From assembly GCA_017502165.1 (NCBI GenBank), contig JAFVVO010000036.1, positions 1 through 41,530 of the forward strand: a stretch of DNA of 41,530 nucleotides, read 5' to 3'. Position numbers and translations under genes: made by a program. Position 1 is the stretch's first letter. Each line of letters opens with the position of its first letter. This document shows, one piece after another, positions 37,779-40,788 of this stretch. This DNA is from Clostridia bacterium. Lineage in GTDB: Bacteria; Bacillota; Clostridia; Christensenellales; QALW01. Below the pieces are notes generated by a model. The model did no database searches. It was given only the letters and a program-made list of their open reading frames with translations, and was not told the origin of the DNA.

Positions 37779-37811
37779 TTAGCGTGTTATCCTTAACGGA
37801 GAACACGCTAA
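37779..37811. repeat. 10-bp stem hairpin before the array
   Basis: TTAGCGTGTT / AACACGCTAA with a 13-nt loop, no T tract. It precedes the mini-hairpin array. Confidence 0.6.
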
Positions 37812-37820
37812 AACTAAGTT

Positions 37821-37984
37821 TGCCCTTATGGGCAAGTGAAGTTTACTTCGAAAGTGAAGTTATCCTGCGGATAGTGAAGTTTTGCCTTTGGCAAAGTGGG
37901 CAAACTTAACTTCACTGCGAGCCCCTGTGAGCAACTTCACTGTGCGTAGCACAACTTCACTTTCGCAGTAGCGAAAACTTCACT
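37821..37984. repeat. Mini-hairpin array with an orientation switch
   Basis: AGTGAAGTT occurs at 37835, 37853 and 37873; its reverse complement AACTTCACT occurs at 37908, 37933, 37953 and 37976. Spacers are different short palindromes: TGCCC-TTAT-GGGCA, TACTTCGAA, ATCC-TGC-GGAT, TTGCC-TTT-GGCAA, then on the right GTGC-GTA-GCAC and TTCGC-AGTA-GCGAA; one spacer (37917-37932) is imperfect. Because of the switch, the left and right halves can also pair with each other. There is no open frame through it. The rest of 37735-38228 contains the hairpins listed separately and no gene. Confidence 0.85.
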
Positions 37985-37985
37985 A

Positions 37986-38040
37986 ACAGAAAAAGAGCAG
38001 ACACATAAGGTCTTTTCCACTTGCGTGTTTACTCTTTCTG
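37986..38040. repeat. Long hairpin after the array
   Basis: CAGAAAAAGAG with CTCTTTCTG, extended by GACAC with GTGTT inside, with a ~21-nt loop. Immediately right of the mini-hairpin array. Confidence 0.6.
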
Positions 38041-38069
38041 CTTGTATAAAGGTTTGGGCTTAGCCCATT

Positions 38070-38137
38070 TGCATTTGACCAGTCAAATGCGATGCTCGAA
38101 CTTAACGATGTTTTCCAAATTCTCCGCTAAGAGCATC
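38070..38137. repeat. Near-perfect palindrome and further inverted repeat
   Basis: GCATTTGAC-CA-GTCAAATGC (38070-38089) is followed by the inverted pair GATGCTC (38091-38097) and GAGCATC (38131-38137). It ends about 90 bp before the GH2 start codon. Confidence 0.55.
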
Positions 38138-38228
38138 ACCCATTTTCGCCCCTTATATATTTTTTGATAGTTTTTATTGTCTAAAGCGGCAAAAATTTGC
38201 CGTTACTTAACAAATAAAGGGTGTTTTT

Positions 38229-39983: not shown

Positions 39984-40424
39984 ATGAAAAAGATTATTGC
40001 AGGTATCAAAAACTTTTTTGCTGATTTTCAGGCATTTGTAAACAAAGGCAACGTGCTTGACATGGCAGTAGGTATTATCATAGGCGGTGCGTTCAAGGAT
40101 ATCGTTACTTCCTTGATCGACAACATTATCTCCCCCTTAATCGGCCTTATCTTCAAGGCAGACTTCAACGACGTTGCAATTCACGTTTTAGGTGTTGACA
40201 TTAAGATTGGCGCATTTATAACCGGCGTTATCAACTTTGTTGTAATGGCATTCGTGGTATTCTTAATCGTTCGCGGTGTTAATTTCCTTCGCGAGCTTGG
40301 CAAGAAAAAGGAAGAGGAAGCTCCTGCTCCCGCACCCAATACAAAGAAGTGCCCCTATTGCTGCACCGAAATTGCTATTGAAGCAACCCGTTGCCCCCAT
40401 TGCACCAGCCAGCTTGGCGAATAA
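39984..40424 (+). CDS. mscL: Large-conductance mechanosensitive channel MscL with zinc-ribbon tail
   Basis: 146 aa. The MscL core is complete: FVNKGNVLDMAVGIIIGGAFKDIVTSLIDNIISPLIG (first membrane helix) and FITGVINFVVMAFVVFLIVRG (second helix). After an Ala/Pro linker the C-terminus carries CPYC...CPHC, a zinc-ribbon finger in place of a plain end. The channel opens under membrane tension on osmotic downshock. The zinc ribbon would lie in the cytosol and could assist assembly or sensing; I recall similar tails in other Firmicutes MscL proteins. AGAAAGG upstream. Confidence 0.93.
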   Translation: MKKIIAGIKNFFADFQAFVNKGNVLDMAVGIIIGGAFKDIVTSLIDNIISPLIGLIFKADFNDVAIHVLGVDIKIGAFITGVINFVVMAFVVFLIVRGVNFLRELGKKKEEEAPAPAPNTKKCPYCCTEIAIEATRCPHCTSQLGE

Positions 40425-40440
40425 TTAAAGAAACACAAAA

Positions 40441-40466
40441 TGCCCGATTTTGCGTCGGGCATTTTT
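40441..40466 (+). terminator. Intrinsic terminator of mscL
   Basis: TGCCCGA / TCGGGCA stem with a 7-nt loop followed by TTTTTA, 16 bp after the stop codon. Confidence 0.9.
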
Positions 40467-40475
40467 ATTTTTGGG

Positions 40476-40646
40476 AAACGGACGGATATAAGCGCACACG
40501 TGCGCAGTTAAATTTTGTGCTTGCGCACATTGTCCTACGGACAGTTATATTTGCCTTTCGGCAAGTGATATTGCGCTTCGCGCAGTGATATTCGCCTAAC
40601 GGCGAGTGATATAACCCTAACGGGTTATTAAGGTGTGCTGACGCAC
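40476..40646. repeat. Mini-hairpin array (AGTGATATT type)
   Basis: Begins with AAACGGACGGATATA, then a run of seven hairpins: GCGCAC-AC-GTGCGC, TGTGC-TTGC-GCACA, TGTCC-TAC-GGACA, TGCC-TTTC-GGCA, GCGC-TTC-GCGC, CGCC-TAAC-GGCG and AACCC-TAAC-GGGTT. The last four are separated by AGTTATATT (40543), AGTGATATT (40564, 40584) and AGTGATATA (40605) at 20-21 bp spacing. The tail at 40617-40646 repeats 20883-20912. It lies downstream of the mscL terminator, so it may not be transcribed from mscL. The 40425-40917 interval holds no gene; the remainder is palindromic repeats. Confidence 0.85.
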
Positions 40647-40677
40647 TAAGCATTATATTGTTATTTATATCTATTCC

Positions 40678-40702
40678 TGTAGGGGAGGCAACCTGCCTCC
40701 CG
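40678..40702. repeat. Palindromic repeat, CGGGAGG type, reverse orientation
   Basis: TGTAGGGGAGGCA...TGCCTCCCGA: reverse orientation of the CGGG-stem/stem-CCCCTACA element seen at 40725-40755 and 23405-23435. Confidence 0.75.
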
Positions 40703-40724
40703 ATAAACGAATCCTTTGTTTTAC

Positions 40725-40755
40725 AAATTTCGGGAAGGTAATACCTTCCCCTACG
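40725..40755. repeat. Palindromic repeat, GGGAAGGT type
   Basis: AAATTTCGGGAAGGT followed by AATACCTTCCCCTACG. Shares its palindrome with 20629-20652, and its AAATTTCGGGAAG start with 23405-23417. Confidence 0.85.
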
Positions 40756-40788
40756 GTATAAAACATACAAATCCAACAAATAAATTAC

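Follow-up and report, generated by a model that had tools for sequence, protein, structure and literature searches.

The array of hairpins at positions 40476-40646 of the DNA analysed here (the window, 41,530 nucleotides in full length) belongs to a family of hairpin arrays that is multicopy and, in the relatives sampled, extragenic. In these arrays a constant separator of 8-9 nucleotides alternates with self-complementary units whose stems are arbitrary, the loops take the form C-TN(N)C-G on one strand, and copies gain or lose units or whole arrays. Judging from sequence comparisons, we put at about an even chance the reading that the window array is one instance of a noncoding, REP-like DNA repeat dispersed in the genome, with hairpins that replication template switching, biased to the leading strand, both creates and keeps perfect. 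The family is filed in Rfam as Gut-1 (RF01706). It is probably a dispersed DNA repeat and not a single or discrete RNA gene, in which case the Rfam name misdescribes the entity. What appears to be most new is an orientation according to replication arm, together with first hairpins that look copied from the host gene; both features come from relatives, not from the window copy.

Anatomy and neighbourhood of the window array

The array follows a same-strand gene, mscL, and a terminator-like hairpin, and is built as follows.

39984..40424, + strand: mscL, same-strand gene upstream of the array (Pfam PF01741, E 1.1e-34)
40440..40472, + strand: intrinsic-terminator-like hairpin and T-tract between mscL and the array (by inspection)
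40478..40688, + strand, ends approximate: whole dispersed element in common with the copy at G000:C2:115k (blastn, 76% over 238 columns)
40492..40505, + strand: hairpin 1, GCGCAC/GTGCGC
40506..40514, + strand: separator AGTTAAATT, a variant (from the AGTKAWRTT list)
40516..40529, + strand: hairpin 2, loop TTGC
40531..40543, + strand: hairpin 3, loop TAC
40542..40617, + strand: match to Rfam Gut-1 (RF01706), 73.6 bits against a gathering score of 50
40543..40551, + strand: separator AGTTATATT
40551..40564, + strand: hairpin 4, loop TTTC
40564..40572, + strand: separator AGTGATATT
40572..40584, + strand: hairpin 5, loop TTC
40584..40592, + strand: separator AGTGATATT
40592..40605, + strand: hairpin 6, loop TAAC
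40605..40613, + strand: separator AGTGATATA
40611..40628, + strand: hairpin 7, loop TAAC
40635..40646, + strand: weak hairpin 8, 4 bp, GTGC-TGAC-GCAC

The seven hairpins at 40492-40628 are perfect and non-overlapping, with arms of 5-7 and loops of 2-4, whereas 500 dinucleotide shuffles of 40476-40646 gave a mean of 0.77 hairpins and a maximum of 4. The earlier note on this DNA had reported seven hairpins in a row, the last of them separated by AGTKATATW at 20-21 bp; both statements are borne out, with separators starting at 40543, 40564, 40584 and 40605 and spacings of 21, 20 and 21. It had also likened the array to a second one at 37.8 kb with slightly different separators, and AGTGATATT and AGTGAAGTT do differ in 2 of 9 bases. 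The array folds with z = -4.5 on the + strand and -4.2 on the - strand, and the first arm of hairpin 1 can pair near 40633-40638 as well, closing the entire array. By its likeness to the copy at G000:C2:115k, the element (approximately 40478-40688) exceeds the interval 40476-40646 given previously.

The window copy sits behind a terminator, and its first hairpin is not gene-derived. Downstream, a gene for an HTH protein lies on the opposite strand and runs toward the array; no tRNA was found within the window. In G001, a genome of the same genus that keeps the GH2-mscL arrangement, no array was seen by eye, either in the first 600 bases or so behind mscL or in roughly 700 bases ahead of GH2; at 64% identity of the MscL proteins, the noncoding DNA cannot be aligned. 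A tie between arrays and the glycosidase neighbourhood was considered and rejected, as 80 Clostridia loci at homologues of the neighbouring glycosidase gene yielded no convincing array. A second palindromic repeat, of the TGTAGGGGAGGC.. type, borders the array at 40679-40760 and is also found at locus L045; a stretch beside another Gut-1 array of the same genome is 82.7% alike over 185 bases.

Gut-1 copies in the genome and across the order

The core of the array, at 40542-40617, matches RF01706 above the cut-off, and the 37.8-kb array also matches, with 51 bits against the gathering score of 50. The genome carries 32 Gut-1 matches at E <= 0.001, of which 14 exceed the cut-off, and a separator-gap-separator pattern gave 51 matches in it compared with 0 for the reversed pattern. 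Matches were identified in four of five genomes of the same family, and in 99 of 396 sampled genomes (50 of 142 genera) of the order, where the per-genome counts are minimum values, as only a few candidates were scored in each. The suggestion that the array belongs to a family of elements rather than being a single accident is therefore upheld, with many copies both in the genome and in relatives.

In PMC2864571, Gut-1 is listed as a likely noncoding RNA known exclusively from environmental sequences of the human gut. Besides this paper, a search of one open library found no paper treating the Gut-1 family, and nothing relevant on related repeats in gut Clostridia. As filed in Rfam, Gut-1 is a trans-acting structured noncoding small RNA present in several copies, and the scores above the gathering cut-off and the compensatory changes in its stems agree with an RNA gene. 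Across nine copies in the genome, 98 of 99 stem cells are Watson-Crick, compared with a mean of 0.69 when the 3' arms are dealt anew, and 9 of 12 pair positions show more than one Watson-Crick pair type with both sides changed. However, the number of units is variable, two relatives (G283 and G381) have 61-70 matches each, many copies lie tens of bases from gene stops or at tRNA terminators, and the arrays of these two relatives are oriented by replication arm, so that we regard an RNA gene as improbable. The linker is constant, and there are 124 distinct 5' arms among 212 units; since the hairpins of these units were picked for perfect arms, their 100% pairing is no proof by itself.

Within the genome the separators fall into the classes AGTGATATT, AGTGAAGTT, AGTGATGTT and GTGAAAT, and in the copies printed they are almost uniform within one element. 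Some elements, such as the window copy, have hairpins in a single orientation. Others are convergent, with left and right arrays whose separators are reverse-complementary and can therefore pair into a trunk (folding z = -9.5). Hairpin number differs between copies, a point that the earlier note had raised, with one hairpin-plus-separator unit more in the C2 copy than in the window copy. The 37.8-kb array is part of a convergent element.

37779..38145, + strand: sister element, convergent AGTGAAGTT arrays (98.9% over 368 bp to the copy on G000:C16)
37811..37885, + strand: Gut-1 match inside the sister element (51 bits)

The two sister copies, in the window and on C16, have unrelated flanks, and both lie within flanks of the inverted-repeat, terminator type. 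Inverted repeats flank the window sister element and four other copies. When joined, the flanks of each of the five elements fold more stably than 100 shuffles do on average, and in four of them no shuffle matches the fold; the exception is the window's own sister copy (-11.1, against -15.3 for the best shuffle). The target-site duplication expected of a MITE was not seen at the two sister copies, which are the sole near-identical pair and are flanked by inverted repeats. A GCATTTG-N6-CAAATGCGATGC hairpin occurs at the right end of convergent elements, at 38071-38095 of the window and four other places in the genome. All five places of this right-end pattern, the only one searched for an autonomous MITE partner, adjoin arrays.

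In 6 of the 20 loci first fetched from the genome (L038, L043, L046, L050, L052 and L054), the element lies directly behind a tRNA gene and its terminator, and L046 has a partial second tRNA copy. At approximately 820-1110 of L046 (G000:C18), and at L205 (G283:C1 near 1,049,000), the 3' end of a tRNA is repeated behind the tRNA gene, followed by a terminator and then a Gut-1 array. By eye, the tRNAs concerned are a tRNA-Ser and a tRNA with a CCA anticodon, respectively, and an inverted piece of the T-arm lies between the copies. The right ends of L046, L050, L054 and L051 have a common GAGTTCGAATTC-like sequence, the complement of which could read as GYKKDIF..YEFELL-like peptides and which, by eye, is perhaps a coding remnant.

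Gene ends and replication arms in two relatives

G283 and G381 come from one genus in a different family of the order; both genomes are closed or almost so, and they have 61 and 70 Gut-1 matches, respectively, at E <= 0.01. When arcs were assigned from GC skew, sampled in stretches of 20 kb, the strand of the match agreed with the arc in 55 of 61 cases in G283 and 62 of 70 in G381. In positive-skew arcs the agreement was complete (28/28 and 27/27), leaving no minus-strand match among 55, and the rule was broken by 14 of the 131 matches overall. A binomial p of approximately 1e-11 is too small, since the arrays are clustered and certain of them yield two matches that overlap. The origin and terminus are inferred from skew alone, as dnaA does not lie at a skew switch. 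In G381 the local skew is reversed at 390-430 kb, a stretch that holds no match. Dense clusters of arrays occur soon after one GC-skew switch in both genomes (1.03-1.09 Mb in G283, 1.18-1.22 Mb in G381). In the genome of the window, where orientation was assigned by hand, the rule was not seen: two of six single-orientation arrays and approximately 10 of 16 convergent elements fit the weak local skew.

None of the 75 arrays of these two relatives lies inside a gene according to codon-scored gene calls. Two arrays have no upstream gene in the stretch; of the other 73, 57 follow a gene of their own strand and 16 a gene of the opposite strand. A table based on longest open reading frames (same/same 14 and opposite/opposite 13 of 35) had indicated no link to genes, and was replaced by the codon-scored calls.

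A perfect or near-perfect palindrome, defined as scoring at least 8 and ending no more than five bases from the first separator, starts 30 of the 75 arrays, compared with 0 of 375 shuffled sequences and 4 of 400 random positions. It is present in 23 of the 48 arrays lying within 45 bases of a same-strand gene end, overlaps the coding end in 18 of those 23, and has the stop codon within its loop in 9 of the 18. A hairpin with the stop codon in or at its loop was identified at 11 of 48 array-bearing gene ends versus 44 of 1271 array-less ends (p = 1.7e-6), the latter comprising 33 of 773 leading and 11 of 498 lagging ends. The palindromes at the 44 array-less ends may be relics or early stages; since they occur there too, part of the stop-in-loop palindromes may be ordinary terminators.

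Orthologous loci were compared among G283, G381 and G097. In at least four pairs, the orthologue that lacks the array also lacks the palindrome:

G097:C38:50862, array; G381, array-less (98.6% identical over 429 bases)
G283:333399, array; G381, array-less
G283:477182, array; G381 and G097, array-less
G381:1204526, array; G283, array-less

Where both orthologues bear an array, the hairpin can follow the gene that carries it. G283:511763 and G381:678091 share 93% identity over 429 bases and the protein ending ..NYSRSN-stop, but the last codons differ, being AGA AGC AAT in the one gene and CGT TCA AAT in the other. In each case the second arm is the reverse complement of its own gene end, save for one or two mismatches. 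At G283:3083159 and its orthologue in G381/G097, the array is present in both and the palindrome only in G283.

The closer pair, G381 and G097, differs in 24 of 642 array columns at nine loci, fewer than in the flanks (4 of 13 loci were dropped for want of a spanning match). This result rejects hairpins that are hypervariable at short range. The arrays of the pair are mostly near-unchanged, which implies that rewriting is slow or rare, and selection at the sequence level is possible. One array has four hairpins in one genome and two in the other, and the array at G381:563150 is absent in G097.

Selection at mRNA 3' ends is the strongest rival to template switching, given that the arrays stand behind genes running the same way and that their hairpins take in stop codons. 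The hairpins would protect or terminate the upstream mRNA, as REP stabilisers do, with stems under selection for RNA pairing. The copies behind tRNA and mRNA terminators in the genome of the window, and the lower divergence of arrays compared with their flanks, also fit such a role. However, 519 of the 1365 called genes are on the lagging side and yet the positive-skew arcs hold no minus-strand match, so that genes alone are insufficient to account for orientation; the 16 arrays behind an other-strand gene likewise argue against selection at mRNA 3' ends. We consider it unlikely, if less so than the other rivals.

Orientation by replication arm is also seen in the biology of IS200/IS605 elements as given in PMC6006769, and the family could be a non-autonomous mobile element that moves as single-stranded DNA on the lagging-strand template by means of a Y1/RAYT-type enzyme. 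It is palindromic, extragenic and multicopy, and its arrays are present or absent at orthologous sites. However, the genome of the window has no Y1_Tnp match, and such matches occur in 32 of 99 genomes with Gut-1 versus 105 of 297 others (p = 0.63). Moreover, there is no fixed stem, and inspection of the printed arrays revealed no GT[AG]G foot. Such movement therefore seems improbable, to much the same degree as an RNA gene or marginally less so.

The loops offer a further reading of orientation. In the genome of the window, TNC makes up 33 of 44 three-base array loops and TNNC 26 of 43 four-base loops; in G283 and G381 together the counts are 111 of 158 for TNC and only 15 of 54 for TNNC, and in other hairpins 20 of 217 and 21 of 244, respectively. 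On the opposite strand these loops read GNA or GNNA closed by C-G, and d(GNA) loops with a C-G closing pair are stable DNA loops (PMC5815330). Orientation might thus be left by loss, if arrays with stable GN(N)A loops on the lagging template are deleted while the opposite arrangement survives. However, a search for stronger folding of the lagging-template strand found none, the mean DNA folding energies of the two strands being equal (-21.83 and -21.81), and loss would leave the gene-copied first hairpins unexplained. We regard it as very improbable.

Proposed template switching and known systems

Template switching would act when a nascent strand turns back on itself, adds a reverse complement of the bases it has just laid down and then resumes on the template. 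Foldback on the leading nascent strand would set the copy on the 3' side of the original, in keeping with the observed polarity, and a leading-strand bias of switching would lay arrays along the replication arm, as in the two relatives. An array at a gene end would be tolerated, and is probably a selfish 3' boundary element. Such switching would explain why stems are arbitrary yet perfect, and why the first hairpins of relatives mirror the last codons and stop of the host gene. Template switching generates hairpins and reverse-complement copies in one event (PMC8794818), and quasipalindrome switching in E. coli is strand-biased, with leading-strand correction reported (PMC7202029). By itself, however, it leaves the constant separator and the spread of separators unaccounted for. 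Moreover, orientation is off-rule in the genome of the window, as it is for the 14 exceptional matches of the relatives, the window copy sits behind a terminator without a gene-derived first hairpin, and DNA folding energy is equal between strands.

A further-reaching proposal, which we hold tentatively and think doubtful, is that the arrays form a self-renewing, genome-wide system. The separator would mark leading-strand foldback, the host gene end and stop would be copied, hairpins would be added and stems rewritten, and the covariation of Gut-1 would be mutational and not the sign of an RNA gene.

If Gut-1 is a repeat, the Rfam family would have to be reclassified as a DNA repeat instead of an RNA gene. 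Should template switching be the right reading, these genomes would preserve natural traces, in their hundreds, of how hairpins arise and are renewed in living bacteria. They would also caution that covariation, usually taken to prove a functional RNA stem, can result from mutation alone. The orientation rule would make a strand-specific replication process readable from sequence.

Group IIC introns and some insertion sequences target terminator hairpins. The sister elements in the genome resemble them in lying inside terminator-type inverted repeats, but Rfam scans gave no match to a group II intron, including the domain V core of group IIC, and no protein was found. The gaps between separators are self-complementary in the window array, as in the arrays of relatives, unlike the unrelated, non-palindromic spacers of a CRISPR.

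REP, BIME and REPIN sequences (as described in PMC3116915 and PMC6006769) are similar in being short extragenic palindromes with tens to hundreds of copies, sometimes in tandem, and the 32 matches in the genome and the arrays of G283 and G381, all outside genes, follow this pattern. However, REPs as given in PMC6006769 have a conserved stem with a 5' GT[AG]G foot, and the array family is the reverse, with the stem free, as the many distinct 5' arms attest, and the linker constant. Furthermore, a TnpAREP/RAYT (Y1) gene was found neither in the genome of the window nor in association with Gut-1 among the genomes surveyed.

As for Gut-1 RNA, the window array and its copies match the model and have the same separators and hairpins. 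In contrast to the noncoding RNA of PMC2864571, the entity seen here is a multicopy repeat with a variable number of units, arranged by gene ends; the arrangement by replication arm, in two genomes only, is a further difference from Gut-1 as that paper describes it. The hairpins made by template switching in PMC8794818 and PMC7202029 share with the arrays a reverse-complement copy made in one event and, in E. coli, a leading-strand bias. Those hairpins are single events, whereas here they would recur genome-wide, as arrays with a constant separator.
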